A stretch of 52,012 bases of DNA from a virus, in IMG/VR virus record IMGVR_UViG_3300009129_000022, positions 1 to 52,012 of that record; one strand, given 5' to 3'. The position numbers and the translations under genes are program-made. Below are positions 17,046 to 38,086 of this stretch, in pieces (the stretch's first letter is position 1; the number at the start of each line of letters is the position of its first letter). A model generated the notes under the pieces. The model did not search any database. It had not been told where the DNA came from and saw only the letters and a list, made by a program, of their open reading frames with translations.

Positions 17046-17405
17046 ATGATAAAGGTGGGCGATTTGGTGTGCATGCCACGACGGCGAGAGCGGGGTATAG
17101 GCATCGTTATTAAATATTCTGACGATTTAGCCAGGGAAGGCGGGGTCAATATAACGAAAATCTTAGAGGAAACAAAAGACATCATAAGCTACACAGATAG
17201 AGCACAGATATTTAAAAACGCCTATCAACGCTGCGGCGATACGGAGTTTCTTGATCAGGCATTTTATTATAATGCTGGATGGGCGAGCAAACCTAAGTTG
17301 AAGTTTGCATATGTAAAATGGATGAAAAAGCCTTCAGATTACACGATGAAAGCAGTATTCGCACCCGAGGCGTGGTATCCTATTGAATGGCTAAAAAGTT
17401 ATTGA
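17046..17405 (+). CDS. KxGDLV-family protein with long insertion, 119 aa
   Basis: It opens with MIKVGDLVCMPRRRERGIGIVIKYSDD and closes with KFAYVKWM and WYPIEWL, the two halves of the family fold. An insertion of about 45 helical residues (TDRAQIFKNAYQRCGDTEFL) sits between them. This is the largest simple family member. Its stop codon lies in the -35 region of the tRNA promoter. Confidence 0.78.
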   Translation: MIKVGDLVCMPRRRERGIGIVIKYSDDLAREGGVNITKILEETKDIISYTDRAQIFKNAYQRCGDTEFLDQAFYYNAGWASKPKLKFAYVKWMKKPSDYTMKAVFAPEAWYPIEWLKSY

Positions 17406-19288: not shown

Positions 19289-19477
19289 ATGAAAACTTTT
19301 AAGCCAGGTGATTTGGTTGTCATTACAGACGGCACAAACCAAGAAGAGATCCCCGATCATCGCACGGGGCTCATTGTGCGAGAAGGGAACCATAAGAACA
19401 GTTATATCGTTTTGTTTCCCAATCGTGCCGAGCTAAAGTTTCACGCGATGTTCTTGAAAAAAGCTACATCATCTTAG
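19289..19477 (+). CDS. KxGDLV-family protein, 62 aa
   Basis: MKTFKPGDLVVITDG, then HRTGLIVREGNHKNSYIVLF, is the standard family start. The ATG at 19289 (or the in-frame GTG just before it) is only 8 nt past the -10 box. There is no ribosome binding site, so a leaderless message is likely. Confidence 0.78.
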   Translation: MKTFKPGDLVVITDGTNQEEIPDHRTGLIVREGNHKNSYIVLFPNRAELKFHAMFLKKATSS

Positions 19478-19516: not shown

Positions 19517-19720
19517 ATGTGCTACGATTTCGATATTAAGATAGGGTGGTCGGGTGATGATAACGTCGTTGATTTAGACGAATACCGACAGAAGAAAGAG
19601 AGGGAGGAAATAGCCAAGTTAATAGATTTGGTTAATGATATTTTAGATGAATGCCCACCAGAGAGCAGGGCATTTTACGTCTCGTTAGAGGAAATGTTAT
19701 CGGACGAGTTTACCAAATAG
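19517..19720 (+). CDS. Hypothetical acidic protein, 67 aa
   Basis: CAAGGAAACACCGTTA precedes the ATG. MCYDFDIKIGWSGDDNVVDL is followed by a charged helix (EYRQKKEREEIAKLIDLV) and a short C-terminal helix. The end DEFTK then TAG lies where family junctions usually carry a start codon for the next gene. No family is recognised. Confidence 0.68.
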   Translation: MCYDFDIKIGWSGDDNVVDLDEYRQKKEREEIAKLIDLVNDILDECPPESRAFYVSLEEMLSDEFTK

Positions 19721-19911
19721 GGGATCTGGTTCGTTTGGATCCGAAACTGATCGAAATACACCGCGCTCAAGGCGATTGGGTGCCACCGGAACCTGTAGGA
19801 ATAGTTATGATAACAGAAAACGTGCATGATATGTATCGTATCACAGTTTTATTCGGATCTCTCCATCAGGTATACCTTTCACACGAACTTGTATTAGTCA
19901 GCAAGGCTTGA
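19651..19911 (+). CDS. KxGDLV-family protein with no canonical start at the expected place
   Basis: The family core begins with YQIGDLVRLDPK at about 19717 and continues PVGIVMITENVHDMYRITVLF. At the place where the family has ATG or GTG (around 19708-19720) there is no ATG, GTG or TTG in frame. The nearest ATG is at 19651, deep inside the previous gene and without a ribosome binding site. Options are the long 86-aa form, initiation at ATA or ATC, or a -1 shift from the upstream frame. The stop lies in a TTGACA box. Confidence 0.6.
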   Translation: MPTREQGILRLVRGNVIGRVYQIGDLVRLDPKLIEIHRAQGDWVPPEPVGIVMITENVHDMYRITVLFGSLHQVYLSHELVLVSKA

Positions 19912-19962
19912 CATCTACTTAACAACTTCCCTATTGACTTTGGTGCCGTCCGGTGCTATATT
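19908..19962 (+). promoter_or_regulatory. TTGAC-module promoter
   Basis: Boxes: TTGACA 19908-19913 (contains the previous stop TGA) and TTGACT 19934-19939, then a 17-nt spacer and TATATT 19957-19962. A leader TATAGAGTAAGGAGAAAAA with a clear Shine-Dalgarno sequence follows. Confidence 0.78.
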
Positions 19963-20522: not shown

Positions 20523-20644
20523 TGGAACACTTGTTTGCTAACTGCCATCAGGAGCTATCGTTTCTCGTTCTATGGGGTTCTTCGCTGCCTTTTCTGGGCG
20601 CATACATTAAATACTTGTGGAGTCAGCCAGATGAAACCGGGTGA
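20522..20644 (+). CDS. Small single-helix membrane protein, 40 aa
   Basis: ATG at 20522 overlaps the previous stop (TAATG). The protein has a polar start, one hydrophobic segment (FLVLWGSSLPFLGAYIKYLW) and the tail SQPDETG. Its last 14 bases are also the start of the first array member, the same overlap that joins the GDLV genes. This makes it a likely real gene despite its size. Confidence 0.62.
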   Translation: MEHLFANCHQELSFLVLWGSSLPFLGAYIKYLWSQPDETG

Positions 20645-20828
20645 TTTAGTACAGCGTGTTGAGGGCCCTGGACAGGACTTTGGTATTGGGCTGGTGGTTA
20701 AGTTTCTTTTCGATGACGACGATGGCGATGCGAGATGGGCGGTCTTATGGGCTAACCCAAAATGGACATTAAGAGATGGAACATCTGTGACGTATGAAAG
20801 CGAAGTGGAGGTTATAAGTGAAAAGTAG
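20631..20828 (+). CDS. KxGDLV-family protein, first of the main array, 65 aa
   Basis: The start MKPGDLVQRVEG at 20631 is preferred over an upstream in-frame ATG because it matches family N-termini and follows GGAG by 8 nt. The layout is strand GIGLVVKFLF, an acidic loop, strand RWAVLWANPKW and the closing YESEVEVISEK. The predicted fold is a small SH3-like barrel with no catalytic residues. The last codons contain the ribosome binding site of the next gene. Confidence 0.82.
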   Translation: MKPGDLVQRVEGPGQDFGIGLVVKFLFDDDDGDARWAVLWANPKWTLRDGTSVTYESEVEVISEK

Positions 20829-21009
20829 CGGTGCCCCCAGTGTAGGCGATCTAATCGTTCATTTGAATGACGTGAGCCGTGATATTTTTTGTCCCGGTTT
20901 GGTTGTTCAATGTCGAGGGAATGAGTGTCTTATTATATGGGCAAACAAAAACGCAGACAAGGGCTGGTTTAAAAGAATGTTATTGAAGGTTATAAATGAA
21001 GGCAGTTAA
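20818..21009 (+). CDS. KxGDLV-family protein, 63 aa
   Basis: GTG start after GGAGGTTATAA. MKSSGAPSVGDLIVHLN has a longer N-terminus than most, so the overlap with the previous gene is 11 nt. Strands FCPGLVVQC and ECLIIWANK follow. It ends LKVINEGS. Confidence 0.8.
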   Translation: MKSSGAPSVGDLIVHLNDVSRDIFCPGLVVQCRGNECLIIWANKNADKGWFKRMLLKVINEGS

Positions 21010-21250
21010 ACCGGGACACTGCGCACAAGTGGGCGATCTGGTGCGAGAAGGATGGTGTACGAAGAAGCGATGCGTTATGCCTCCGTACACATATGGTATT
21101 GTTCTTGAAACACACAATCGTTCTCCAGAAGCATATACGGCAGAGCAGATTGCAGAGGCACCTGTTCGTACTATGTTTATTCTAACCACAGAAGGAAAGA
21201 GGATTCGACGGTATGCGGTTCATGTGGAGGTTATAAATGAAGGTGGGTGA
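20996..21250 (+). CDS. KxGDLV-family protein, 84 aa
   Basis: ATG after AAGGTTATAA, 14-nt overlap with the previous gene. The N-terminus MKAVKPGHCAQVGDLVREGW appears to contain an extra KPG unit before QVGDLV, perhaps a remnant of a duplicated start. It ends HVEVINEGG. Confidence 0.82.
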   Translation: MKAVKPGHCAQVGDLVREGWCTKKRCVMPPYTYGIVLETHNRSPEAYTAEQIAEAPVRTMFILTTEGKRIRRYAVHVEVINEGG

Positions 21251-21434
21251 TTTAGTAACTCTTAAGATGGATGGAGCAGCGCGTGACTCTCATAAGTGTC
21301 CGCTATCATTAGGAATAGTTGTCGATGTGCAGAACTGCCCTATTAGTGTAACTTATCCCGTTTGGGTATCGTGGAACTTTCTTCAGGGTAGAATCAAACA
21401 ACAAAACAGCTATCAGCTAAAGGTTATAAAATGA
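21237..21434 (+). CDS. KxGDLV-family protein, 65 aa
   Basis: ATG after GGAGGTTATAA with 14-nt overlap. MKVGDLVTLKMDG, then LSLGIVVDVQNCP and VWVSWNFLQG. It ends QLKVIK and overlaps the next gene by ATGA only, because that gene lacks the usual N-terminus. Confidence 0.82.
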   Translation: MKVGDLVTLKMDGAARDSHKCPLSLGIVVDVQNCPISVTYPVWVSWNFLQGRIKQQNSYQLKVIK

Positions 21435-21610
21435 AAGACTTTCCAAAGATTAGAATCAGACTGAAAGACAACCTTTCCAACTCAGAGCACATCGGGTATC
21501 TGGTTGAAGATCGTCCAAACAAGTTTATTATTTTGAATGAGTCCAAGCGAATCGAACTGCATTTTCCGAAGGCATCATATGAATACGAGGTTATAAATGA
21601 AAGTAGGTGA
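21431..21610 (+). CDS. Small array protein lacking the GDLV N-terminus, 59 aa
   Basis: MKDFPKIRIRLKDNLSNSEH has no GDLV. GYLVEDRPNKFIILNE and the ending YEVINESR match family strands and the junction. It has lost or replaced the first strand. ATG follows AAGGTTATAAA. The overlap with the next gene is the standard 14 nt. Confidence 0.75.
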   Translation: MKDFPKIRIRLKDNLSNSEHIGYLVEDRPNKFIILNESKRIELHFPKASYEYEVINESR

Positions 21611-21812
21611 TTTGGTTAGGTTTACAACAGAGCACGTGCTGGATCCCGGTTTTGCGTATTGTGGAGACTGGAAAGGTATTATAACAAAATGCGTACAGTA
21701 TGCGTACAACGAGGTCATCACGATTCACTGGACGTGTCCCGATCACGGGACATTTTCCGCTGAATACCTGTCCGATGATGAGTTCTTGGAGGTGCTTAGT
21801 GAAAATAGGTGA
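21597..21812 (+). CDS. KxGDLV-family protein, 71 aa
   Basis: ATG after GAGGTTATAA. MKVGDLVRFTTEHVLDP, then DWKGIITKCVQY and VITIHWTCPDHG. It ends LEVLSENR. The overlap with the next gene is 14 nt. Two Cys and two His in the second half could bind metal, but the spacing is not a known motif. Confidence 0.82.
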   Translation: MKVGDLVRFTTEHVLDPGFAYCGDWKGIITKCVQYAYNEVITIHWTCPDHGTFSAEYLSDDEFLEVLSENR

Positions 21813-22005
21813 TCTGGTGCGGCCATATAGACGAACTGGGCATCATATGGTGGGTGTAATAGTTAAATGGGAAAGAGCAACAAGTGTTCAGGGCGATTAT
21901 ATATTGGTACATTTCCACAGACCCCATATTACCATTGAGAGTAAATGGGTGAGAGAGATGTGGTTTAAAAGAGCAGAGGTGGAGGTAATCAGTGAAGGTA
22001 GGTGA
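21799..22005 (+). CDS. KxGDLV-family protein, 68 aa
   Basis: GTG start at 21799 after GGAGGTGCTTA, giving MKIGDLVRPYRRTGHH. Upstream in-frame starts would lie fully inside the previous gene. Strands MVGVIVKWERA and YILVHFHRP follow. It ends VEVISEGR. Standard 14-nt overlaps at both ends. Confidence 0.82.
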   Translation: MKIGDLVRPYRRTGHHMVGVIVKWERATSVQGDYILVHFHRPHITIESKWVREMWFKRAEVEVISEGR

Positions 22006-22213
22006 TTTGATTAGGTACAAGGCCAACTTTCAGCCACCGCCGTATGATTTATGGGTGGGGCCTTGTCTGGTAATGCGTAAGTATCCGCCCCCCGATGATG
22101 GACTATGGGATATATTGATACCTGGACGATGCACCAGGACCGGCACGGTGCAGGGTGTTATTAACGAAAACAACTATGAGATTGAGGTGATAAATGGAGC
22201 CGTAACAAAGTGA
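21992..22213 (+). CDS. KxGDLV-family protein, last of its block, 73 aa
   Basis: GTG after GGAGGTAATCA. MKVGDLIRYKANFQPPP, then GPCLVMRKYPPPDDGLWDIL and EIEVINGAVTK. The tail differs from the junction consensus because no gene follows directly; a candidate structured RNA begins 9 nt downstream. Confidence 0.82.
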   Translation: MKVGDLIRYKANFQPPPYDLWVGPCLVMRKYPPPDDGLWDILIPGRCTRTGTVQGVINENNYEIEVINGAVTK

Positions 22214-22221
22214 CTATTTTA

Positions 22222-22358
22222 AAGAGGATCCCCGATAACTTATAAGTGGAGTGGTTCAATATCTCCTACGAACCACAAGCATGTCTGAAGTGAGACAGCA
22301 ACAAACAGTTAAAGGGAGGTTAGCAGTGTGAGCAAGATCGCACAACGGGGATCCTCTT
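22222..22358 (+). ncRNA. Candidate structured RNA with 13-bp closing helix and pseudoknot
   Basis: AAGAGGATCCCCG (22222-22234) is the exact reverse complement of 22346-22358. Inside, 22251-22257 pairs with 22270-22276 (7 bp), 22282-22286 with 22293-22297 (5 bp) and 22326-22330 with 22339-22343 (5 bp, one wobble). The first hairpin's loop (22261-22266) can pair with 22315-22320 as a pseudoknot, wobbles included. No open frame spans it. It sits after a gene block and 12 nt before the next promoter module. I cannot match it to a known ribozyme, riboswitch or phage RNA class. Confidence 0.65.
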
Positions 22359-22370
22359 ATTTACATTCTC

Positions 22371-22413
22371 TTGACAGCGCCCCCTTGACTTTTAGCTCTT
22401 TGGGGTGTATATT
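22371..22413 (+). promoter_or_regulatory. TTGAC-module promoter
   Basis: TTGACA 22371-22376, then TTGACT 22385-22390, a 17-nt spacer and TATATT 22408-22413. The leader contains AAGGAG before the ATG at 22433. Confidence 0.8.
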
Positions 22414-22432
22414 TAGATAGTAAGGAGATATT

Positions 22433-22591
22433 ATGGCTCGAAAGCGCAACAAGAACAAGCCCCCCAAGGCTCGTAACTGGCTCGTGGTTCACTCCAAGGG
22501 GTTGACGGGTAGGCGTGGCGCTGGATACCACAGCAAGCGCGGATATGTGCGGCAGGTGAAGCACAAGGGGCAGTTAGATGAAAATCGGTGA
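22433..22591 (+). CDS. Small very basic protein, 52 aa
   Basis: AAGGAG lies 6 nt before the ATG. MARKRNKNKPPKARNWLVV and a Lys/Arg/His-rich second half suggest nucleic acid or ribosome binding. Its tail (LDENR) is written in the bases that start the next GDLV gene (14-nt overlap), so it has become part of the array although it is not a family member. Confidence 0.75.
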   Translation: MARKRNKNKPPKARNWLVVHSKGLTGRRGAGYHSKRGYVRQVKHKGQLDENR

Positions 22592-22751
22592 TCTGGTAAA
22601 GCGCACCATTAACGGGCGCGAAGAGGTGGCACTGATCATCGAGATACCATCGAGAATAACAGGGGCACTGCTCACTATTGATCATGTTACCGTGATGACG
22701 CGCCACGGAAAAGGCAGTTGGAGCGTATCAAAGATAGAGGTGGTTAAATGA
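22578..22751 (+). CDS. KxGDLV-family protein, 57 aa
   Basis: ATG after AAGGGGCAGTTAG. MKIGDLVKRTINGREEVALI, then IDHVTVMTRHGKGSWSV and KIEVVK. One of the shortest members. ATGA overlap with the next gene. Confidence 0.8.
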   Translation: MKIGDLVKRTINGREEVALIIEIPSRITGALLTIDHVTVMTRHGKGSWSVSKIEVVK

Positions 22752-22933
22752 AAGTCGGTGACTTGGTGAAACACAAGAGACAAGACACGTATTTAATGGG
22801 TGTCATCGTCAGAGAGTATCTACCTCTCAACGCGACACTTGCACCTGAATATAGCGTGCAGTGGATCCCCACACATCTGGGGAGAAGTCGTTGCACCGCT
22901 GGTGTATTGGAGCTATTAAATGAAACCCGGTGA
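22748..22933 (+). CDS. KxGDLV-family protein, 61 aa
   Basis: ATG after GAGGTGGTTAA. MKVGDLVKHKRQDTYLMGVI, then EYSVQWIPTHLG and VLELLNETR. The 14-nt overlap with the next gene is in the standard frame. Confidence 0.82.
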   Translation: MKVGDLVKHKRQDTYLMGVIVREYLPLNATLAPEYSVQWIPTHLGRSRCTAGVLELLNETR

Positions 22934-23105
22934 TCTGATTAGACATATATCGAGTGGACATTTAGGGATCGTATTGCGTAGTCGTATATCAAAAGGAACC
23001 ATTAACGAATCTGTTTATAACTATATTGATTTTGTGTGGCTTGATGATTGGCTTGAAGATAGTGCCTTTGCGGGGCTGTTTGAGGTGGTAAGTGAAGTTA
23101 GGTGA
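22920..23105 (+). CDS. KxGDLV-family protein, 61 aa
   Basis: ATG after GGAGCTATTAA. MKPGDLIRHISSGHLGIVLR, then NYIDFVWLDDWLEDSAFAG and FEVVSEVR. Standard overlaps at both ends. Confidence 0.82.
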   Translation: MKPGDLIRHISSGHLGIVLRSRISKGTINESVYNYIDFVWLDDWLEDSAFAGLFEVVSEVR

Positions 23106-23280
23106 TCTGGTTAAAAGTCTGATGCCTGAGTCGTTTCACAATGGAAACGGGCAAGTTGGTATAATCATTGAGGCTATTGAAGGCGTTGCACCGCTGACAA
23201 TGTATCAGGTCCGATGGCGTGACGGCGAAATGGAATATATGGCAGCGAGTGATATAGAGGTGATAAGTGAAAGCAGGTGA
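23092..23280 (+). CDS. KxGDLV-family protein, 62 aa
   Basis: GTG after GAGGTGGTAA. MKLGDLVKSLMPESFHNG, then QVGIIIEAIEG and YQVRWRDGEMEYMAA. It ends IEVISESR, the junction consensus. Confidence 0.82.
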   Translation: MKLGDLVKSLMPESFHNGNGQVGIIIEAIEGVAPLTMYQVRWRDGEMEYMAASDIEVISESR

Positions 23281-23458
23281 TTGGGTTCGCGAGAAGCGAG
23301 ATTCTCGTTATGGTATCATTATTAAGTTTGGTTCGCCGCACGCACAACGTGTGCTGGTTCTCTGGCAGGGAATGGACTGTAGTTTGACGTGGGTATGGGA
23401 TTACACTTTGGTTGCTGGCGTGGAAGATGAACTATTGGCGTGGAAAGGTGCTAAATGA
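23267..23458 (+). CDS. KxGDLV-family protein (GDWV variant), 63 aa
   Basis: GTG after GAGGTGATAA. MKAGDWVREKRDSRYGIIIK, then QRVLVLWQGMDCSLTWVWD. Unusually, the end is DELLAWKGAK rather than EVIS, and the overlap with the next gene is ATGA only. Confidence 0.8.
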   Translation: MKAGDWVREKRDSRYGIIIKFGSPHAQRVLVLWQGMDCSLTWVWDYTLVAGVEDELLAWKGAK

Positions 23459-23649
23459 CACCCTTTAAAGCTGGCGATTTGGTGAGATTCCGATACCCAT
23501 ACCGTGAGTCTGAGAAAGGGGTGTTTCTCGTGGTTAAAGTCGAGGGTAGTACGTGGATTCTGCTCCATAATGGGCCCGACCTTTCGCCCGATGGAACACA
23601 AACCTTGCACAACTGGACGAATCTGGAGGTGGTAAGTGAAGTATGTTGA
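23455..23649 (+). CDS. KxGDLV-family protein, 64 aa
   Basis: ATG after AAAGGTGCTAA. MTPFKAGDLVRFRYPYRESE, then VFLVVKVEGSTWILLHNG. It ends NLEVVSEVC, with the 14-nt overlap restored. Confidence 0.82.
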   Translation: MTPFKAGDLVRFRYPYRESEKGVFLVVKVEGSTWILLHNGPDLSPDGTQTLHNWTNLEVVSEVC

Positions 23650-23956
23650 CACAATGCACATTGTAAATGCCGGTGATGTGATTTGGCAGGAAAGGATGCC
23701 AGGTGGATGGTGCGTAGTGCTTGAAGTAATAGAGTGGGACGCAGAAAACCCCAGCCCGAAGGGCTGGATACAAGCCGACTATCCAGTTTATAAAGTACAC
23801 CATCCCATAGAGGGCATCATCGAAGACCCATCATATTATTATATCACACCAGAGGAGAAACACGAACTTTTAAATAGGGTTTGGAAAGATGGTAAAATCA
23901 TTGGATACAAGGAAGGTTACACTGGATTAAGGAGGTTTGAAGATGAAAGTGGGTGA
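23636..23956 (+). CDS. Larger KxGDLV-family relative, 106 aa
   Basis: GTG after GGAGGTGGTAA. The N-terminus MKYVDTMHIVNAGDVIWQER has the family strand shifted by about 8 residues; WCVVLEVIEWDAEN and YPVYKVHHPIEG follow. A C-terminal extension of about 30 residues (EEKHELLNRVWKDGKIIGYK) is not in other members. It carries a GGAGG near its end for the next gene. Confidence 0.78.
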   Translation: MKYVDTMHIVNAGDVIWQERMPGGWCVVLEVIEWDAENPSPKGWIQADYPVYKVHHPIEGIIEDPSYYYITPEEKHELLNRVWKDGKIIGYKEGYTGLRRFEDESG

Positions 23957-24143
23957 CATGGTGAGGTTACGGAAAGTAGCCGCGTGGTTACAACCACACA
24001 CTGACAAACGAGGCAAAATAGGCGTTGTGATAGAGATTAAACGGGATGCACCGCACGGGAAAAATGTATATCATGTTAGCTGGGCGAATAACACACAGGG
24101 CTGGGTATACCAACCAGAACTGGAAGTCATCAGCGAGTCTTGA
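23943..24143 (+). CDS. KxGDLV-family protein, last of its block, 66 aa
   Basis: The ATG at 23943 is chosen over a TTG two codons earlier because it restores the 14-nt overlap and follows GGAGG at good spacing. MKVGDMVRLRKVAAWLQ, then KIGVVIEIKRD and YHVSWANNTQGWV. It ends LEVISES with its TGA inside the next TTGACA box. Confidence 0.82.
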   Translation: MKVGDMVRLRKVAAWLQPHTDKRGKIGVVIEIKRDAPHGKNVYHVSWANNTQGWVYQPELEVISES

Positions 24144-24194
24144 CATTCTCTTAACACGGTTGCCCTTGACTTTTAGGGCCACGGGGTGTATATT
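24140..24194 (+). promoter_or_regulatory. TTGAC-module promoter, leaderless layout
   Basis: TTGACA 24140-24145 (holds the previous stop), TTAACA 24151-24156, TTGACT 24166-24171, a 17-nt spacer and TATATT 24189-24194. The predicted transcription start is the A of the ATG at 24201. Confidence 0.8.
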
Positions 24195-24200
24195 ATAGTC

Positions 24201-24413
24201 ATGTTAGGAAAAATAGTCAGATTTGTTGATAGCTCTCATGATCAGTATCCTGAGTTTGTGGGGCATTGTGGGTATGTGTTGAGGTGCGCAAAAAACCGCG
24301 ACACGGGCGCGCTGCACCTGGCAGTGAAGTGGTTTAAACCCCATCCCGTCTATGCAGGATCCGCCGCCCGCGAATCGCACTTCATGGCGAGCAAGTTTGA
24401 GGTGGTTTCATGA
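24201..24413 (+). CDS. KxGDLV-like protein (GKIVRFVD), probably leaderless, 70 aa
   Basis: The ATG at 24201 begins 7 nt after the -10 box; an in-frame GTG upstream would overlap the promoter and is rejected. MLGKIVRFVDSSHD, then HCGYVLRCAKNR and LHLAVKWFKP. It ends SKFEVVS. No Shine-Dalgarno sequence is possible on the predicted transcript. ATGA overlap with the next gene. Confidence 0.75.
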   Translation: MLGKIVRFVDSSHDQYPEFVGHCGYVLRCAKNRDTGALHLAVKWFKPHPVYAGSAARESHFMASKFEVVS

Positions 24414-24703
24414 ACATCTGGACGTTTGTGGTTAGATACGATGGCGAGCTATCTGTTTCGACCCATCTCACACTGAAGGGTGCATTGCTCGTGGCTGTTG
24501 GTGATGTTCTCGACTATCTTGGCATCTACGAAGAGTATTTTGATGACGACAGAGACGAAAAGGAATACCCACCGTGGAGAAAGGAACAGTTAGACGAAAT
24601 GGATAGCGAGCGGCTTACACAGGTATACAGACTGTGGTCCGAGCGCACCTGGGACCACTTTAACTATGAATCTGAAGTGATCAAAACAAAGGTGGAAGGA
24701 TGA
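24410..24703 (+). CDS. Conserved hypothetical protein, 97 aa
   Basis: MNIWTFVVRYDGELSVSTHL, then a helix (KGALLVAVGDVLDYL) and an acidic section rich in Glu, Asp and Trp. The pattern resembles a small phage protein family I have seen, with no function known. It is not a GDLV member but is coupled to them by ATGA overlaps on both sides. Confidence 0.76.
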   Translation: MNIWTFVVRYDGELSVSTHLTLKGALLVAVGDVLDYLGIYEEYFDDDRDEKEYPPWRKEQLDEMDSERLTQVYRLWSERTWDHFNYESEVIKTKVEG

Positions 24704-24924
24704 ACAATCACGGCGATCACGCAGACGTAGGCGATCTTGTGGAGGTTTATAATGCTGGTGGGCTACCAACGGGATATATAGGCTTGATCACAGATGTGCG
24801 TTTTCGTGGTTCTTTCCATAAAAACATTAAATATGTAAAGATCAAAGCGCCATATATCGATCATGACTGGCATTTAGCATCTTTTGTAAGGATTCTATCG
24901 AGCGCACGGAGCGAAGATGTTTAA
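24700..24924 (+). CDS. KxGDLV-family protein, 74 aa
   Basis: ATG after AAGGTGGAAGG. MNNHGDHADVGDLVEVYNAG has an 8-residue His/Asp-rich extension; YIGLITDVRF and NIKYVKIKAPY follow. It overlaps the next gene by 8 nt, not 14. Confidence 0.78.
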   Translation: MNNHGDHADVGDLVEVYNAGGLPTGYIGLITDVRFRGSFHKNIKYVKIKAPYIDHDWHLASFVRILSSARSEDV

Positions 24925-25159
24925 AGCTGGCGATATATTAAAACATTTGCCGAGCGGTGACATCGGCATCGTGATCGTTGCTCGTGAGGGCATGGTGCGT
25001 GATCTTAGCCGGTATGACGTAATGCAGCATTGTTTAGGAGACGATGCCGGCGCGCCACTACCCGCATCTATTCCATTGAATACAGGCGATCTTTGCGTTT
25101 TGAGGCGCGGACAGTTATATTTAATAATACACGAGTTCAGGTGGGAGAAAGTAGGATAA
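24917..25159 (+). CDS. KxGDLV-family protein, 80 aa
   Basis: ATG after GGAGCGAAG. MFKAGDILKHLPSGDIGIVI, then a loop and LCVLRRGQLYLIIHEFRWEKVG. The central part (CLGDDAGAPLPASIPLNTGD) is longer than in other members. One-base overlap (TAATG) with the next gene. Confidence 0.78.
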   Translation: MFKAGDILKHLPSGDIGIVIVAREGMVRDLSRYDVMQHCLGDDAGAPLPASIPLNTGDLCVLRRGQLYLIIHEFRWEKVG

Positions 25160-25365
25160 TGTTTAAAGTTGGTGATCTGGTTCGGATTAGTCCTGAATGG
25201 TTGCGAGAATGCGAGGATAAGATTCCTATGGGCGTCATTACTCGCACCTATCCCGAAACCCCAACCGCTCACGGGGGTCATAGTGTGGATGTGTACTGGC
25301 TTGACGAAGGAAAAGTGTACGACGGAGAAGATACGAGGGCTCTGATGTTATTAAACGAGTCTTGA
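25159..25365 (+). CDS. KxGDLV-family protein, last of its block, 68 aa
   Basis: The ATG at 25159 gives MFKVGDLVRISPEWLRECED; earlier in-frame starts lie well inside the previous gene. MGVITRTYPETP and HSVDVYWLDEGKV follow. It ends LLNES with TGA inside the next TTGACA box. Confidence 0.8.
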   Translation: MFKVGDLVRISPEWLRECEDKIPMGVITRTYPETPTAHGGHSVDVYWLDEGKVYDGEDTRALMLLNES

Positions 25366-25416
25366 CATTTACTTGACAGGACAGCACTTGACTTTTAGGG
25401 CTATCGGGTGTATATT
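25362..25416 (+). promoter_or_regulatory. TTGAC-module promoter, leaderless layout
   Basis: TTGACA 25362-25367, TTGACA 25373-25378, TTGACT 25388-25393, a 17-nt spacer and TATATT 25411-25416. The ATG at 25423 is exactly at the expected transcription start. Confidence 0.82.
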
Positions 25417-25422
25417 ATTGGT

Positions 25423-25626
25423 ATGAAGTTGATTACTATCAAGGCCGCACCCCGCGCATCTTCCCGCACACGTAACCGTTTGCGCGAGCATGGACCGGTG
25501 TTCAAGCTGGTGCGAGAAGACGAGCCGATCTGCTTTGCGGGTGTCAGGTGTATCTTTCTGCGTTCGGGCGAATGGTTCGGGTGGTTGCCCCTTAACGAGA
25601 TCGAGGTTATAAATGAAAGTCGGTGA
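25423..25626 (+). CDS. Conserved small basic protein, probably leaderless, 67 aa
   Basis: MKLITIKAAPRASSRTRNRL, then HGPVFKLVREDEPICFAG and FLRSGEWFGWLPLNEIEVI. I recognise this from other phages, function unknown. The C-terminus EIEVINESR is the array junction, so it feeds directly into the next GDLV gene (14-nt overlap). Confidence 0.8.
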   Translation: MKLITIKAAPRASSRTRNRLREHGPVFKLVREDEPICFAGVRCIFLRSGEWFGWLPLNEIEVINESR

Positions 25627-25780
25627 TATGGTAAAAACTCACAAGGGTAACCTTGCGATTGTTGTAGAGAGGTATATGATTGCCGGTCAGCTATATGTGA
25701 ATATAATGTTCTTAAAAACCGGATACCTCAGAACAGGCTTTTGGGGCGCTCAATGCGAGGTGATCAGTGAAAGTCGGTGA
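25613..25780 (+). CDS. KxGDLV-family protein, copy A of a duplicated pair, 55 aa
   Basis: MKVGDMVKTHKGNLAIVVER, then LYVNIMFLKTGYLRTGFWG and CEVISESR. It aligns along its whole length without gaps to the gene at 25930, differing at roughly a third of positions. Standard junctions at both ends. Confidence 0.82.
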   Translation: MKVGDMVKTHKGNLAIVVERYMIAGQLYVNIMFLKTGYLRTGFWGAQCEVISESR

Positions 25781-25943
25781 TCTGGTAAAATATAAACACG
25801 AGGATTGGGCTCATTGGGTCGGTATTGTGATTAAACAAATACCAGGGACCGATGAGACGCAAGTTGTTCAGTGGAATAAAGAAAACAACTTGCGTACCAG
25901 TAACCCTAAGCGTGACCTGGAGGTTATAAATGAAAGTCGGTGA
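25767..25943 (+). CDS. KxGDLV-family protein, 58 aa
   Basis: GTG after GAGGTGATCA. MKVGDLVKYKHEDWAHWVGI, then QVVQWNKENNLRTS. It ends LEVINESR. It is the single unit between the two near-identical genes. Confidence 0.82.
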   Translation: MKVGDLVKYKHEDWAHWVGIVIKQIPGTDETQVVQWNKENNLRTSNPKRDLEVINESR

Positions 25944-26097
25944 CTTGGTAAAAACCCAAAAGGGTAACCTTGCGATTGTGCTCGATAGGGTACAGATCGG
26001 GAACTTTCTATATGTAGATTTAAGGTTTTTAAAGACAGGGCGTGTGAGAACAGGCTTTACAGCGTGGAAGTGTGAGGTTATAAGTGCAAGTCGGTAA
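25930..26097 (+). CDS. KxGDLV-family protein, copy B of a duplicated pair, 55 aa
   Basis: MKVGDLVKTQKGNLAIVLDR, then LYVDLRFLKTGRVRTGFTA and CEVISASR. Same length as copy A at 25613. The DNA of the shared segments is also alike, e.g. AAGGGTAACCTTGCGATTGT in both. Stop TAA instead of the usual TGA. Confidence 0.82.
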   Translation: MKVGDLVKTQKGNLAIVLDRVQIGNFLYVDLRFLKTGRVRTGFTAWKCEVISASR

Positions 26098-26266
26098 CTT
26101 AGTAAAGATCAAACGCGCATCTATCGGGCTACCAAAAGGCTCGGTTGGCTTGATTGTGCGTCACTTCACGCACGGCAACACCTTGGTCTTTGAAATACAG
26201 TTTACAAACGGACGTACAGTCCGCTTACTATCACGAGATTTGGAGGTGATCAGTGGGACTGCGTAA
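26084..26266 (+). CDS. KxGDLV-family protein (GNLV variant), 60 aa
   Basis: GTG after GAGGTTATAA. MQVGNLVKIKRASIGLPKGS, then VGLIVRHFTHGNTLVFEIQF. Asp of GDLV is Asn, the same base change (GGTAAC) that turned the previous gene's stop from TGA to TAA. It ends LEVISGTA. Confidence 0.8.
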   Translation: MQVGNLVKIKRASIGLPKGSVGLIVRHFTHGNTLVFEIQFTNGRTVRLLSRDLEVISGTA

Positions 26267-26435
26267 TCCGAGAATACAGATAGGCGATCTGGTAGAACAT
26301 ACTAAGCCCCCGCCTCTGCGTGTAGGAAGGGTATATTTGGTAGTCCGCACGGCACCCGGCTGGATAAAGCTGGCGGACGAAGGCAATGAATGGGTGCAGG
26401 CATCAGCTTATGTGGTGACGCATGCAGGTAGGTGA
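26253..26435 (+). CDS. KxGDLV-family protein, 60 aa
   Basis: GTG after GAGGTGATCA. MGLRNPRIQIGDLVEHTKPP has a 6-residue extension; VYLVVRTAPGWIKLADEG follows. It ends VVTHAGR. Standard 14-nt overlap with the next gene. Confidence 0.8.
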   Translation: MGLRNPRIQIGDLVEHTKPPPLRVGRVYLVVRTAPGWIKLADEGNEWVQASAYVVTHAGR

Positions 26436-26601
26436 TTTGGTTTATGTTAAAACACACCCCGATATGATTATGGCTTTGATTGTGCGGATCCGTCATTCAG
26501 CGGAGGATTCCGCTGGTGAAACGCGCCTTATCTACGAGTGTCATGCGCTCGACGGTCATAGTTTCTCGTGTTTAGGGGAAAACTTGGAGGTTATAAAATG
26601 A
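26422..26601 (+). CDS. KxGDLV-family protein, 59 aa
   Basis: ATG at 26422 behind a weak GGTGACGC site. MQVGDLVYVKTHPDMIMALI, then TRLIYECHALDGHSFSC and NLEVIK. ATGA overlap with the next gene. Confidence 0.8.
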   Translation: MQVGDLVYVKTHPDMIMALIVRIRHSAEDSAGETRLIYECHALDGHSFSCLGENLEVIK

Positions 26602-26804
26602 ATCGTAGACGTATTACAGTTGGATCGCTCGTGCGACACAAACGCACCGGTGGCATCGGGCTCGTTATGGAACACATAATGTGGGATGCTGACTGGGGAG
26701 CGTACAAAGTAAAGTTTGTTAAGCCTGTCGGAGATGTTAAACTGTCTCAGGTTTATGATCGAGCAGACAGATTCGAGCCGGTTTACGAGTCAGAAGAGTC
26801 TTGA
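26598..26804 (+). CDS. KxGDLV-family protein (GSLV variant), last of the main array, 68 aa
   Basis: ATG at 26598 after GGAGGTTATAAA; an earlier in-frame start is rejected on context. MNRRRITVGSLVRHKRTGGI, then GLVMEHIMWD and YKVKFVKPVGD. It ends ESEES with TGA inside the next TTGACA box. Confidence 0.8.
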   Translation: MNRRRITVGSLVRHKRTGGIGLVMEHIMWDADWGAYKVKFVKPVGDVKLSQVYDRADRFEPVYESEES

Positions 26805-26855
26805 CATTTACTTGACAAGAAAGAACTTGACTTCTGCCCTGTTCGGGTGTATATT
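26801..26855 (+). promoter_or_regulatory. TTGAC-module promoter
   Basis: TTGACA 26801-26806 (holds the previous stop), TTGACA 26812-26817, TTGACT 26827-26832, a 17-nt spacer and TATATT 26850-26855. The leader has AAGGAG before the ATG at 26876. Confidence 0.83.
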
Positions 26856-28640: not shown

Positions 28641-28862
28641 ATGCCATCAAACCTCGACACCGTCATGACTTTCGCACAAGCGTGCGAGATTTTCACCCTT
28701 GATCTTCTGCCCTATATCCAGCAGGATTATGAGCAGGACGGAGAGCCTGACTATCCCGCTCGTCGGGAGTGCTGGAACAACTGGACAGACAATCTGTGTC
28801 GCGACGGACAGATCAGCGATTGGCAATGTGAGAACTGGTCTCACCCCCCTTGCAACGATTGA
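28641..28862 (+). CDS. Conserved small acidic protein, 73 aa
   Basis: FAQACEIFTLDLLPYIQQDY, then PARRECWNNWTDNLCRDGQI and WQCENWSHPP: a helical, Trp-rich protein with no known activity that I recognise from other large phages. It is the only gene between two promoter modules, which suggests individual control. Confidence 0.8.
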   Translation: MPSNLDTVMTFAQACEIFTLDLLPYIQQDYEQDGEPDYPARRECWNNWTDNLCRDGQISDWQCENWSHPPCND

Positions 28863-28956: not shown

Positions 28957-30033
28957 ATGGCAGTAGACTTTAACACTTTTCTCGGTTCCGTTCCTTTCAT
29001 TCTGAAAGCGAAGCTGCCCGTACTCATTCGCGGCAAGCACGGACTTGGTAAATCTGAGGTGGTCTACATGATCGCTGACAAGATGACGCTACCCGTTGTC
29101 GAGCGTCGAGCGTCACAGATGACAGAGGGTGACCTTCTGGGTCTGCCCGATACCGCTGAGACTTCGATCAATGGGCGCAAGGCGACAACGTGGAACGCTC
29201 CAGACTGGCTCGTGACTGCCTGTGAGCAGCCGGTGGTGCTGTTCCTTGACGAGGTGGACCGCGCGACGATGGAAGTCCGTCAGGGCCTCTTCGAGTTGAC
29301 GGATAGCCGCAAGATCAACGGCTGGCGTCTGCACCCTGAGACGCTGATCATCGCTGCCGTCAACGGTGGCGAACACGGTGCGCAGTACCAAGTGGGTGAG
29401 ATGGATCCTGCCGAGCTTGATCGCTGGGCGGTGTTCGATGTCGAGCCGACTGTGGAAGACTGGCTGAAGTGGGCAAAGAGTAACGTCAATGTGGTTGTGT
29501 GGGATTTTGTTAACCACAACCATGCCCACCTGGAGCATCAGGGCGAGTTTGAGCCTAACAAGGTGTACCCGTCTCGTCGCTCGTGGAAGCGGTTTAACGA
29601 TACCGTAGCCGATACGGGCGTTTTCGAGAAGGAAGGCGATTCCGATCTGCTGTACAACCTCGCTTGTGCGTTCCTGGGCTTTGAAGCTGCGGTTGCATTG
29701 CGTGACTTCGTTGACAAGTACGAATGGCAGGTGACTATTGAGGATATCCTTGATGATGGTGCCCTTGAAAAGACGGAGCAGTGGGGCATCAACGATCACA
29801 GCGCGATGATCGAGAAGTTTGAGGCATCAGAGGTATTCAAGGCTGAGTTGTCAGACGAGCGTATCACTAACCTCGCTAACTACTTTGTGCAGCTTCCGTC
29901 AGAGGTTGCAATGAAGTTGTGGACGGTGCTGGGTGACGCTGATGTCATTGACAATGTGGTGCGACTGCACCAGGCTGAGACGGCATCGGGCACCAAGGTG
30001 AGCGAGCACCTTGTGGAAATCTTGGGTGGATGA
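28957..30033 (+). CDS. MoxR-type AAA+ ATPase, 358 aa
   Basis: Walker A is GKHGLGKS at residues 26-33 and Walker B is VVLFLDEVD at 93-101. TEGDLLGLP just before, and VEEVRQGLF-like and INGWRLHPETLIIAAVN segments after, are typical of MoxR ATPases. The C-terminal lid is helical. MoxR proteins work with VWA-domain partners to remodel or activate target complexes, and such a partner is encoded two genes downstream. Sequence and pairing suggest a chaperone-like machine. The target cannot be deduced. Confidence 0.92.
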   Translation: MAVDFNTFLGSVPFILKAKLPVLIRGKHGLGKSEVVYMIADKMTLPVVERRASQMTEGDLLGLPDTAETSINGRKATTWNAPDWLVTACEQPVVLFLDEVDRATMEVRQGLFELTDSRKINGWRLHPETLIIAAVNGGEHGAQYQVGEMDPAELDRWAVFDVEPTVEDWLKWAKSNVNVVVWDFVNHNHAHLEHQGEFEPNKVYPSRRSWKRFNDTVADTGVFEKEGDSDLLYNLACAFLGFEAAVALRDFVDKYEWQVTIEDILDDGALEKTEQWGINDHSAMIEKFEASEVFKAELSDERITNLANYFVQLPSEVAMKLWTVLGDADVIDNVVRLHQAETASGTKVSEHLVEILGG

Positions 30034-30257
30034 TGAGTAGCGTATCCGCAAAGCCGGGTAACCTTGTGACGGTTACCCGGATGCATACGCCTAACCTGGC
30101 ACTTGTTGTCGGGTGGCGTGATGGCGCAGAAGAGTGGGATGGTTCCATCCCTAATGAGCGTGAACGGTTTGTGTTGTTGCGGTTTATTAAACCTGCACGT
30201 GCCGTGAAGGCTGGAACGCTGGCATACGATACGCGAGACTTGGAAGTTATAAGTTGA
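30030..30257 (+). CDS. KxGDLV-family protein (AKPGNLVTV), 75 aa
   Basis: It starts in the stop of the MoxR gene (ATGATGA); the second ATG at 30033 is equally possible. VSAKPGNLVTVTRMHTPNLA, then LVVGWRDGAEEW and RFVLLRFIKPA. It ends DLEVIS followed by the TTG start of the next gene. Two family members are therefore inserted between the MoxR and VWA genes. Confidence 0.77.
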   Translation: MMSSVSAKPGNLVTVTRMHTPNLALVVGWRDGAEEWDGSIPNERERFVLLRFIKPARAVKAGTLAYDTRDLEVIS

Positions 30258-32786: not shown

Positions 32787-33389
32787 ATGAAAGACAACCT
32801 AATCAAGATCGGGCCCACGCTGCTAACCGTGGCTGAGTTGCTGATTGCGTTTGTGTTGTTGACTGTAAAGTCAATGACGGTTGCGGAAGCTGCGACTGAA
32901 GCACACCGGCGTGGCCCATCTTCCGGCACCGATATGGGCCCACAAACGTATGCAAGCGGTAACACTGCGTGCGAGATGTTGATCCTTGCGGGTATCGCAG
33001 AGTGGGACAATAAAACACGTAGCCGGATCCGTATTACGGAAGGTAGCGAAGATCACAGAAAAGATATTGAAAACGCATATGCAATCTGGCAAGCGAAGGC
33101 CGCGGGTAGGGCGTGGGACGAAAAGATTGCAACAGCAACCCTAACGGAGAGCACAGTAGACCCTTTCACCGTGGGTGCGCTTGTGACGTACAAGTCCAAT
33201 CCAGAGCGAGCAAAGCGAACCGAGGCGATCAGGGCTTCACAAGCCAAGCGTATGGGTATTATCATCGCAATAGATGACAATGTTGCCGGTCACGTGGCAA
33301 GCAGACGCCTCGTGCAAGTTAACTGGGGCGGCTACGGTACGTTCTGGGATCCTGCTAAAAACCTGGAGGTTGTAAATGCAAGTCGGTGA
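32787..33389 (+). CDS. Fusion: helical N-terminal domain plus KxGDLV-like domain, 200 aa
   Basis: Residues 1-125 are helical; the pattern could be a winged helix (LTVAELLIAFVLLTVKSMTV, then WDNKTRSRIRITEG). Residues 130-200 follow the family order: VGALVTYKSNPE, MGIIIAIDDN, RLVQVNWGG and the end NLEVVNASR. The usual GDLV is GALV. The C-terminal junction with 14-nt overlap to the next member is intact. This is the only clear fusion of the family to another domain in the window. Confidence 0.78.
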   Translation: MKDNLIKIGPTLLTVAELLIAFVLLTVKSMTVAEAATEAHRRGPSSGTDMGPQTYASGNTACEMLILAGIAEWDNKTRSRIRITEGSEDHRKDIENAYAIWQAKAAGRAWDEKIATATLTESTVDPFTVGALVTYKSNPERAKRTEAIRASQAKRMGIIIAIDDNVAGHVASRRLVQVNWGGYGTFWDPAKNLEVVNASR

Positions 33390-33591
33390 TTTAGTAAAAG
33401 AGATTGTAACAGATGAGGCATGGAGGCTTTATAATGGTACTGTTGGCGTTGTCATTCGTCCAGCAGATGATGATATGGGCCTTCATCGTCTGGATCATGC
33501 ACGCGGACATCACTGGCTCGTTGCGTGGGGTAGCGGTCACACTCACATCGTGAACATTGATGATATCGAGGTTGTAAATGAAAGTCGGTGA
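33376..33591 (+). CDS. KxGDLV-family protein, 71 aa
   Basis: ATG after GAGGTTGTAA. MQVGDLVKEIVTDEAWRLY, then TVGVVIRPADD and HWLVAWGSGH. It ends IEVVNESR. Standard 14-nt overlap. Confidence 0.82.
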   Translation: MQVGDLVKEIVTDEAWRLYNGTVGVVIRPADDDMGLHRLDHARGHHWLVAWGSGHTHIVNIDDIEVVNESR

Positions 33592-35111: not shown

Positions 35112-35351
35112 ATGGACAAGCAATTCGAAGTCGGAGACTTAGTATCTAAGGCAGCTGCCAGACGCCGTCACCAACCACCCGAATCGCTAGGGGTTGTGTT
35201 GGAGATTCTAGAGAACAACGGAAAGTACAGTAACAGAATTAGGGTATTTTGGTTTAAAGACGATTCAGTGGAGCATGGTTTAAGACACACAACGCCCAGT
35301 GTACGAACAATCAATTCCCGATTCTTGAGATTAATAAATCGAGCATCATAG
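35112..35351 (+). CDS. KxGDLV-family protein, probably leaderless, 79 aa
   Basis: MDKQFEVGDLVSKAAARRRH, then SLGVVLEILENN and RIRVFWFKDDSVEHG. It ends RFLRLINRAS. It is more basic than the array members and is not part of a 14-nt overlap. Confidence 0.78.
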   Translation: MDKQFEVGDLVSKAAARRRHQPPESLGVVLEILENNGKYSNRIRVFWFKDDSVEHGLRHTTPSVRTINSRFLRLINRAS

Positions 35352-35607: not shown

Positions 35608-35854
35608 CGACGATGAAAAGCGCATGTTTCAAGTTGGTGAGTTGGTGAGATTTACAGGGTACGGTATCGGCGGCCCACTCATACCACCGAGTTATATTTT
35701 AGGAAGAGTACATCAGTATCAAAAGAGACTTGATTTGGGGATTATAATAGGAGACGTAACTGGCTATTATAAAGGAAGAACGTTTAGGGTTTATTGGTTC
35801 AGAACGAAACGAATTTCAGAAACTTTTGCGACCCATTTGGATTGGGTATACTAA
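35597..35854 (+). CDS. KxGDLV-family protein (FQVGELVRF), 85 aa
   Basis: MKNNDDEKRMFQVGELVRFT has a 10-residue charged extension; the internal ATG before FQVGEL is an alternative start. RLDLGIIIGDVTGYY and TFRVYWFRTKR follow. The end is divergent (THLDWVY). Confidence 0.75.
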   Translation: MKNNDDEKRMFQVGELVRFTGYGIGGPLIPPSYILGRVHQYQKRLDLGIIIGDVTGYYKGRTFRVYWFRTKRISETFATHLDWVY

Positions 35855-37453: not shown

Positions 37454-37895
37454 ATGGAATGTATACAAATTATTTAAAAACGGTAAACGGGCGAAAGCAC
37501 CGTTTTGTGTGGTAGAAGCTGCAAACGATAGAATAGCGAAAGAAAAATTTTTAGACGAGCATCTTGACAAGGATAATTCTTCTCAAACTAAACTTTCTTC
37601 GTGGACGTTCGTGCGGACGGACATGTCTCAAGAACGAGAACATGAAAAAAATTTAGAAAAGGAAAATGACTTATCAAGAAAAAAAAATTCTTTTCTTGGG
37701 AAATTGGCGATGCGCGCGGGACAACTTCCCAACAATATTTGTGCCGGGCTCGTCTTTTGCAAAGAATCGGAGTGGAAGTGGCAATGGGCAGCGCTGGAGC
37801 CGGCAACCTTAAAATACCTTAAAGGGCTGTCCCCTCAATTTAAATCTGCGCCGAGGGCTGACGAATGGCTAAAAGAACAGATGAGCCAATATTGA
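37443..37895 (+). CDS. Hypothetical protein, 150 aa
   Basis: The ATG at 37443 follows GGAG by 6 nt; an ATG at 37431 has no such site. SHKWNVYKLFKNGKRAKAPF, then VVEAANDRIAKEKFLDEHLD is an alpha/beta start. A highly charged Lys/Glu helix follows, then a basic C-terminal domain with WKWQWAALEPATLKYLKGLS. No family is recognised. It overlaps the next gene by 31 nt. Confidence 0.73.
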   Translation: MSHKWNVYKLFKNGKRAKAPFCVVEAANDRIAKEKFLDEHLDKDNSSQTKLSSWTFVRTDMSQEREHEKNLEKENDLSRKKNSFLGKLAMRAGQLPNNICAGLVFCKESEWKWQWAALEPATLKYLKGLSPQFKSAPRADEWLKEQMSQY

Positions 37896-38086
37896 AAAAA
37901 GGCAATCTAGTAAAAATAAATCGGTACTACAAGGCGGCAGTTGCAAAAGAAAAGAATACCGGCATTGTCCTTGAAATTCACAACGGAAGACAAGCAAACT
38001 TATTTCCCTTCTATGATGTATATGTCTTTAATACCAAAACTATAGAAACAATTTGGGGAGGAGATATGGATTTAATTTCTGAATAA
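37865..38086 (+). CDS. KxGDLV-family protein (KKGNLVKIN), 73 aa
   Basis: MAKRTDEPILKKGNLVKINR, then NTGIVLEIHNGRQ and YDVYVFNTKT. It ends MDLISE. This is the last member of the family in the window. Confidence 0.76.
   Translation: MAKRTDEPILKKGNLVKINRYYKAAVAKEKNTGIVLEIHNGRQANLFPFYDVYVFNTKTIETIWGGDMDLISE

Follow-up and report, generated by a model that had tools for sequence, protein, structure and literature searches.

Overprinted joints and a candidate cassette array of small SH3-like proteins in virus record IMGVR_UViG_3300009129_000022

Introduction

Arrays of swappable genes with a common joint are known from integron gene cassettes. Among phages, the takeover module of SPO1 is described, in the available passages of two papers, as a cluster of early, mostly small genes organised in operons, which carry the promoters and ribosome-binding sites of highly expressed genes and are aimed at various host processes (PMC6873191, PMC10531801). 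Homologous recombination at short shared sequences between phage modules has been proposed to explain swaps, as set out in the accessible part of one study (PMC3029335, citing Clark 2001 and Susskind and Botstein 1978), and homeologous exchange by lambda Red is treated in the accessible part of another (PMC2327257). Here we compare with these systems an array of genes for small proteins that lies, mostly head to tail, between positions 20,631 and 26,804 of the IMG/VR virus record IMGVR_UViG_3300009129_000022, the whole of which (52,012 bases) was analysed and is called the window.

We propose that this array is built of gene cassettes that can replace one another, each of which would encode a small SH3-like barrel. 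In a standard cassette the first and the last DNA would be the same word: the end of the cassette would give the next gene its ribosome-binding site and start codon, and the start of that next gene would give the stop codon. Because cassette ends share one word, recombination at the joints could insert, delete or exchange a whole gene and restore the Shine-Dalgarno (SD) sequence, start and stop, and homologous recombination between joints of ~32 nt would be what moves whole genes. Chains of cassettes would be transcribed from sigma-70-like promoters in the gaps between chains, translationally coupled and expressed early, and the barrels would act as host-directed binders, in takeover or counter-defence, with different targets for different members, which is the weakest part of the proposal. 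We give this reading as a whole, in which SH3-like proteins aimed at the host are encoded by a swappable cassette array with sigma-70-like promoters in front, a probability of roughly 0.55; its cassette part is well supported.

A family of small proteins in the window and its relatives

A profile hidden Markov model (HMM) was grown iteratively from 24 motif-selected seeds and run against the 412 open reading frames (ORFs) of at least 35 aa on both strands of the window, of which 37 were grouped as family members at E<0.02, all on the + strand; shuffled or reversed decoys gave one match in a middle round and none among 8,652 in the last. With six borderline ORFs besides, this bears out a preliminary description of the sequence, which had counted about 40 paralogous small proteins, and the profile proposed there as a check gathers far more than a handful. 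Some 25 of them had been placed consecutively at 20.6-26.8 kb; exactly 25 of the 37 lie within 20,631-26,804, but not strictly consecutively, with three gaps and five other genes among them (21431 and 25423 borderline; 22433, 23636 and 24410 non-members). The scattered members reported at 17.0, 19.3, 19.7, 30.0 and 33.2-38.1 kb stand, whereas the ORFs at 4,749 (E=5.3), 16,493 (E=0.25, or 0.0076 with the wider model described below), 30,254 (borderline, E=0.04) and 33,747 (E=6.4, though MLQAGDLF...TGIYLGE is recognisable by eye) score below the threshold of the window HMM, as do those at 21,431 (borderline, E=0.06) and 25,408 (E=0.73, tail only).

The gene of a MoxR-type AAA ATPase (28957..30033, + strand) served as the anchor for finding related phages, and its search of viral contigs gave 118 relatives, the best 80 of which were used. 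At least one family member is present at 80 of these 80 AAA loci, at least three at 76 and at least ten at 38, in keeping with the earlier suggestion that the array has been retained, and 987 of 992 members lie on the strand of the AAA gene. A wider model, built on 198 loci and the window, matched 2,155 of 19,072 six-frame ORFs at E<1e-4; 1,757 of these are distinct, which is the safer figure because the loci partly overlap (counts of ORFs under this model, of consecutive pairs, of gap promoters and of alignment ends all include overlapping loci or near-identical strains). None of the reversed ORFs matched at E<0.01. Of the 37 window members, the wider model recovers 31 at E<1e-4 and 36 at E<0.05, and misses 37160-37453. 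Member starts were set by rule at the nearest start codon at least two residues before G[D..][LIMV], and members without a fitting start were dropped, leaving 2,243 of 2,335 at E<1e-3; the median member length is 64 aa. When 24 records were searched whole with a 26-row seed alignment, every one held 4-28 matches, but the AAA locus set is the less biased since 8 of the 24 had been reached via the joint pattern described next.

Joints between consecutive genes

Two members were taken as consecutive when the second starts from -60 to +150 relative to the stop of the first, with overlapping loci of one contig counted repeatedly. Of the 1,391 such pairs, 951 have an overlap of exactly 14 nt and a further 142 one of 4 nt. 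The joint has the approximate consensus TGGAGGTNATCA(A/G)TGAAAGTCGGTGATTTGGT, one frame of which reads ...LEVI(S/N)ESR-stop while another gives the SD sequence, the start codon and MKVGDLV. In other words, GAGGT, the start codon and the KVGD codons of the next gene yield EVI(S/N)ESR-stop in the other frame, and the 14-nt overlap lies inside a conserved word of ~32 nt. An example on the + strand at 21587..21616 has GAGGT (SD) ... ATG AAA GTA GGT GAT TTG GT, with EVINESR-stop in the other frame. The word matches the window 13 times when up to 3 mismatches are allowed and 0 times in 100 shuffles. Between the 30 genes of 20,631-26,804 there are 29 joints, of which 17 have the 14-nt form, 6 a 4-nt overlap, 3 other offsets and 3 are gaps.

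Contrasts among 1,834 members, identical nucleotide sequences having been removed, tie the protein ends to this overlap. ESR-like endings occur in 81% of the 728 members whose next family gene overlaps by 14 nt. The share is 9% where no family gene starts within 60 nt (820 members), 1% where the overlap is 4 nt (110 members) and 5% at other offsets (176 members); for E[VLI][VIL] near the end the figures are, in the same order, 78%, 35%, 32% and 34%. The tail Glu codon is GAG in 550 of 565 cases compared with 626 of 1,328 elsewhere in those genes, and without a nearby family start there is a weaker bias in the same direction (198/287 compared with 360/845). At the start of the following gene, GTG is used in 59% of 725 overlapped starts and 21% of 1,109 others, an SD-like word precedes 82% of the overlapped starts, and MKVGDL opens 293 of the 1,109 members whose start is not overlapped. 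The LEVIS/LEVIN ending noted in the preliminary description is seen, but it is largely overprinting: the following gene's SD sequence and start codon are being read in a different frame. The last strand is structural as well, because a third of the members without an overlapping neighbour keep it and it is the fifth strand in the structural model of member 23943 (see below). Mean pairwise identity across genes is 0.32-1.0 over positions -12..+19 of the joint, exceeding 0.6 at 24 of the 32 positions, and is 0.32-0.50 at +20 to +23 and 0.25-0.37, close to chance, upstream of -12 and from +24 on.

The array runs on the + strand in chains separated by the gaps. Chain 1 (20631..22213) has seven members with HMM E of 1e-8 to 5e-19 (20631-20828, 20818-21009, 20996-21250, 21237-21434, 21597-21812, 21799-22005 and 21992-22213) and the borderline gene 21431-21610, with 14-nt overlap joints at 20996, 21237, 21597, 21799 and 21992. 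Chain 2 (22433..24143) is made of members at 22578-22751, 22748-22933, 22920-23105, 23092-23280, 23267-23458, 23455-23649 and 23943-24143 together with two non-members that have the same kind of joint (22433-22591 and 23636-23956). No 14-nt joints occur in chain 3 (24201..25365), whose members lie at 24201-24413, 24700-24924, 24917-25159 and 25159-25365 and whose non-member lies at 24410-24703. Chain 4 (25423..26804) starts with a gene that has the tail and joint only in common (25423-25626), followed by members at 25613-25780, 25767-25943, 25930-26097, 26084-26266, 26253-26435, 26422-26601 and 26598-26804.

Replacement of array content between phages

Array content was compared over 19 loci hand-picked for long flanks, using 37 window genes (33 HMM members and four borderline ones, with gene 24201 entered as 24204, one codon downstream) and 18 hand-picked non-family genes; some of the loci cover the region only in part, and every figure is lower for it. 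Orthologues at 50% identity were found in 13 of 703 gene-by-locus cells for the array family, and in 70 of 342 for the other genes (32 of 209 for those <400 bp). Judged from these sequences, the family is kept at all AAA loci with its content almost wholly replaced between phages.

For the neighbour and alignment-end analyses, neighbour pairs were defined by 70% clusters, and the hand-made table of loci on the same contig may be incomplete. We found 28 sites at which two adjacent members are separated in another contig by extra members. At 14 of the 28 the joints overlap throughout, and 10 of the 28 have exactly one extra cassette; the one-cassette steps measure 139-196 nt, and 7 of the 8 distinct steps equal 1 mod 3. 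Nine comparisons at seven sites were followed nucleotide by nucleotide; in each, the left flank agrees with one joint and the right flank with the other, and the sequence changes over within the joint. Among cases that were not chosen, 201 of 329 internal alignment ends fall in the joint window, where 19% would be expected. The joint common to all cassettes explains part of this excess, which therefore shows the cassette to be the unit of conservation but does not on its own reveal the enzyme.

Growth of an old family by ordinary tandem duplication, followed by divergence, with no cassette system and the joint kept for its SD, start, stop and two beta strands, would explain some of this. The constraints on the joint are real, a tandem duplication is visible in locus L021 compared with L053, and 107 neighbour pairs are kept adjacent in at least two contigs, near-identical strains included. 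Duplication fits less well with one site with matching flanks that is empty in L184, L080 and L083, holds one gene in L084 and holds a different gene in L085. Nor does it readily account for L017 and L067, which agree at 99.98% in the 13 kb to one side of the site and at 99.1% in the 4.2 kb to its other side, yet differ there by exactly one 176-nt cassette whose neighbours are identical in protein sequence. We regard this explanation as unlikely, if a serious one.

A second kind of movable unit is perhaps seen at L057 385-606 and window 28641-28862. Relative to L053, L057 is longer by ~500 bases that hold two small genes; promoter repeats of ~57 nt bound each of them, and the first resembles by eye the protein of window gene 28641.

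Predicted fold, charge and selection

Two members, 23943-24143 (66 aa) and 35112-35351 (79 aa), were modelled with AlphaFold2 and not superposed on each other; the predicted local distance difference test score (pLDDT) and predicted template-modelling score (pTM) were 85.5 and 0.72 for the first and 81.7 and 0.71 for the second. Both (2 of 2) are predicted to be five-stranded barrels with the strand order of SH3-like/KOW domains, which supports the SH3-like scaffold put forward in the preliminary description, where models of ten members had been proposed. Loop lengths vary, the first loop ranging from 7 to 24 residues (5-95% range among 1,255 members with recognisable motifs). Neither model has a PDB match at Foldseek E 0.001, the best values being 1.2e-3 (23943) and 1.4e-2 (35112). 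For the 23943 model the best Foldseek matches are PetP, YorP and ribosomal small-subunit chains (40S chains that are presumably eS4), and VIA-align finds Spt5, PetP, NusG and photosystem I chains with Z up to 8.8. The 35112 model is less clear, with nitrile hydratase at the top in Foldseek and Spt5 (Z 8.6) as the sole VIA-align match of at least 8; both models match Spt5, in 4zn1 (Z 8.8 and 7.9) and 4zn3 (Z 8.5 and 8.6). Thirteen predicted viral proteins match the 23943 model at E<=0.001, several of them with close accessions (A0A516M7..) that are perhaps paralogues of deposited uncultured genomes. The shared fold shows no function.

The barrels might instead be KOW/Tudor-like binders of nucleic acid, the ribosome or RNA polymerase that alter host transcription, translation or the nucleoid, like a multiplied N-terminal domain of MotB. 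Close structural matches do include the KOW domains of Spt5 and NusG as well as 40S chains, and for the early DNA-binding protein MotB of T4 an N-terminal domain of KOW/SH3-like type is predicted, according to the accessible part of its description (PMC7827196). However, the net charge of the 1,834 members averages -0.46 with a standard deviation of 4.1 (29% at -3 or below, 23% at +3 or above), and such a broad distribution centred near zero argues against plain nucleic-acid binding. No KOW family of Pfam matches any of 70 members at E<=0.01, although a diverged motif could escape, and a profile search of the PDB reaches uL24 and NusG only at E 0.04-0.23. The fold also serves subunits of electron-transfer complexes, namely PetP, NdhS and photosystem I subunit IV. 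We therefore hold general nucleic-acid or ribosome binding to be improbable, while giving it real weight.

The ratio of non-synonymous to synonymous substitution rates (dN/dS) was taken over the whole gene for 978 orthologue pairs at 60-98% identity, 588 of which were usable after those with saturated or tiny dS or too few codons were dropped. The median is 0.22 and none of the 588 pairs exceeds 1; for the AAA gene the value is 0.10 (31 genes, 236 pairs). Old divergence of the family, as claimed earlier, is supported. The diversifying selection suggested alongside it finds no support as an ongoing process, since orthologues are under purifying selection; the ratios cover whole genes, which leaves room for positive selection at single sites. 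Because orthologue dN/dS is low, diversity between phages comes mainly from whole-gene replacement. A selfish or near-neutral expansion, in which short homologous joints ease duplication and capture and members do little, would suit the very high turnover, but a median of 0.22 against 0.10 for the AAA gene indicates constraint and at least one member is kept at each of the 80 AAA loci, which makes such an expansion quite improbable.

It is more doubtful still that the barrels are substrate adaptors leading different host proteins to a protease, with help from the phage ClpP-like and AAA proteins: a Clp protease is encoded in the window, and 5ycq, a specificity-enhancing factor of Lon that we take to be HspQ, matches the 35112 model at Z 6.8, but such a score may mean only a common arrangement. 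Also in favour of adaptors, SPO1 Gp53 acts on ClpC, according to the available passages of its description (PMC6873191).

Tests on gene interiors and database searches

Because both ends of members are overprinted by the joint, interiors were tested alone, with eight residues cut from each end, across clusters and on held-out representatives. Interior-only profiles matched 219 of 712 held-out cluster representatives compared with 18 of 7,120 shuffled interiors at E<1, and 470 of 712 compared with 369 of 7,120 at E<10; the interior motif G[IV][VI][V]...VxW is present in 64% of representatives and 5.2% of shuffled interiors. The signal is broad but weak for single members, because only 10 of 712 are reached at E<0.01. 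The family is real and not an artefact of shared ends. That the genes are not one family, with ends made alike by the overprinted joint and interiors unrelated, is a very remote alternative: start and end motifs are indeed joint-encoded, the joint-sharing genes 22433, 23636 and 25423 have unrelated or unrecognised interiors and few interiors score at E<0.01, but for the majority of members this idea is already largely refuted by the interior profiles and motif and by the keeping of MK.GD where the start is not overlapped (MKVGDL in 293/1,109).

For 10 window members no Pfam match exceeded the cut-off, and 70 members gave just 4 families at E<=0.01, with one member each. PHROG 1690, 2827, 9237, 9469 and 16289, all of unknown function, match weakly 1-2 of 70 members each at E<=0.001, those of 2827 and 9469 spanning nearly all of member 23943; most members match no PHROG. 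Three members gave 0 matches to the PADLOC models, a library of defence proteins without counter-defence. We listed 22 distinct ORFs with long extensions to the family domain, some of which are probably spurious upstream extensions. In six of the fusion ORFs (in L027, L029, L034, L044, L045 and L052) the family domain follows a common N-terminal domain of ~100 aa, and a scan of fusions that included L029 and L045 of the six passed nothing in Pfam or PHROGs.

Promoter-like sites and other elements in the gaps

The sequence TTGACT-N17-TATATT occurs in the window as 7 exact copies and 1 with one mismatch, all on the + strand, where 0.5 would be expected at one mismatch. Each of the array's three gaps has a copy (chains 1/2, 22385..22413; chains 2/3, 24166..24194; chains 3/4, 25388..25416), and others lie upstream of the array (19934..19962) and after it (26827..26855), with further copies at 28885 and 30493. 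Going by their sequence, these sites look like sigma-70 promoters. In the wider set a looser form of the motif is found in 40 of 219 gaps, with 0 in antisense and 0 of 1,155 inside overlapping members. Early expression of the array is suggested by these promoter-like sites and by analogy with T4 and SPO1. The T4-type late motif is TATAAATA; of 11 copies in the window 2 are on the + strand (6291 and 12575) and neither is in the array, but the motif fails to separate the array from the structural genes and does not settle the timing.

Between chains 1 and 2, the non-coding stretch 22212-22366 (L007 3033-3187) folds strongly, at -52.7 kcal/mol (z -5.7), and is closed by a 13-bp stem. No Rfam family matches it at the gathering score, a lower-scoring match looks like chance, and beyond the loci of the same strain it has no good homologue. 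Just after this element, L007, a 99.8%-identical strain, has 215 extra bases (3189-3403, compared with window 22360-22367), which hold a tRNA-Thr gene (3327-3402) and, as seen by eye, a 38-codon ORF.

Scattered members, neighbouring genes and phage lineage

Outside the array, the window HMM finds members on the + strand at 17046..17405 (E 2e-8, with a long C-terminal extension), 19289..19477, 19651..19911 and 30033..30257, the last followed by the borderline ORF 30254-30496. At 32787..33389 the family domain forms the last ~75 residues of a 200-aa ORF; the members 33376-33591 and 33578-33811 overlap it and each other by 14 nt, and an apparent third member after them (33795-34007) is one by look and does not score. 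Further members lie at 35112..35351 (the second AlphaFold2 model), 35624..35854, 36851-37090, 37160-37453 and 37892..38086.

The window, which is the entire virus record, also encodes a Clp protease, a Cpn60 chaperonin and, downstream of the MoxR-type AAA ATPase, a DUF2201 metallopeptidase/VWA protein (30545-31795). The Clp protease and Cpn60 genes are close together (852-1523 and 3174-4745). Two very large proteins, of 1,441 and 1,218 aa, are encoded at 6795-11120 and 42862-46518 and look like paralogues because a block around SIIV(S/T)R.PID(I/V)LRMSD...SCH is common to both by eye; Pfam, run on the product of 42862-46518, places DUF2608 at its start.

The phage-record relatives of a partial window protein are major capsid (gp23-type) proteins, all at 60% identity or less, and none of the 298 phage records with relatives of the AAA protein exceeds 60% either. 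The collection searched contains no close cultured relative of this lineage. A megablast search of known phages with 10 kb of the window gave no match; tblastn gave one weak match for member 23943 (Klebsiella phage ZK1, E 0.01) and none for member 25767, and with a typed family consensus 8 records among 50,697, the best at E 0.07. On 12 named phage records the family profile found 0 in 11 and a single stretch in ZK1. The contigs of 12 of the 80 AAA loci measure 185-206 kb, and the phages carrying the array are probably an uncultured group of large and, we infer, marine phages. The joint pattern also matches 4 contigs of the bacterial genome collection with several family members on each, which, judged by their neighbours and a run of N, are probably phage contigs binned into metagenome-assembled genomes (MAGs). 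In the MAG chromosome CP070664.1 of candidate division WOR-3 (L208, 7481-7862), members occur at three places with a run of N near one, probably as phage contigs scaffolded into that MAG.

Discussion

Several points weigh against a swappable cassette array. Half of the variable sites (14/28) are not fully overlapping, and 128 of the 329 internal alignment ends lie outside the joint window. The nine base-by-base comparisons were hand-chosen from bracketed events, and three of them have one weak flank (right 0.57 and 0.60 for L084, where the right-hand neighbour B has an indel, and left 0.72 for L110/L191), the remaining flanks being at 0.75-1.00; the bracket screen itself works gene by gene and is blind to exchanges inside genes. 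Joint identity is 0.752 within a locus and 0.734 between loci, which is slight homogenisation only, and the needs of translation and of the first and last strands keep the joint conserved in any case, so that exchange there is possibly a by-product. The contigs of the relatives are metagenome assemblies, and the cleanest case, L017/L067, compares two of these. For the promoters and the function, 179 of 219 gaps are without the motif, and fusions, Pfam, PHROGs and PADLOC yield no functional lead.

That the barrels are host-directed binders is suggested by their small size, probably early expression, one protein-interaction scaffold and much faster replacement between phages than for the neighbouring AAA gene. 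If the cassette proposal is true, a phage can keep a large and quickly replaceable set of small host-directed proteins, exchanging whole genes on a single scaffold and through a single joint, without losing its translation signals. Recombination at overprinted start/stop joints is a directly testable claim, and 1,757 distinct ORF translations of one family are available for testing against host targets. Where small phage proteins have ends in common, overprinted signals may be the reason, so claims of family membership should rest on interiors.

A more general view can be offered tentatively, at somewhat less than even odds. The array may be a natural gene-joining standard, in which the same coding word at both cassette ends lets any order give a translatable, coupled chain, and through which phages would shuffle a repertoire of binders with a single fold. 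It would then be a cassette system without a dedicated integrase (none was searched for), its site being a ribosome-binding site and a start/stop overlap.

In function the closest comparison would be the SPO1 takeover module, and in evolution boundary-sequence mosaicism. By its sequence the array resembles the former as a cluster of small genes with promoter-like sites and SD words; its members share one repeated scaffold, whereas SPO1 products have low similarity to characterised proteins and no single repeated scaffold is described for them in the passages available, and the family profile finds no member in the SPO1 record. As in boundary-sequence mosaicism, array breakpoints lie in short shared sequence (201/329 alignment ends), but here one word stands at most joints of paralogues, inside coding sequence, and gives SD, start and stop. 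The coding nature of the joint also separates the array from integron cassettes. T4 MotB, in the accessible part of its description, is like an array member in having a small, SH3-like/KOW N-terminal domain in an early phage protein (PMC7827196), but it is a single gene with an OB-fold partner, and the family profile finds nothing in T4. Our literature search found no paper on such an array, which is no proof of absence since most subscription papers were outside reach. Within the passages and records examined, neither the SPO1 module, in which the joint itself was not searched, nor boundary mosaicism repeats one fold and one joint through an array. Mosaic exchange at boundary sequences, takeover modules and SH3 folds are all known parts, and as far as the literature was searched it is their combination that is new.

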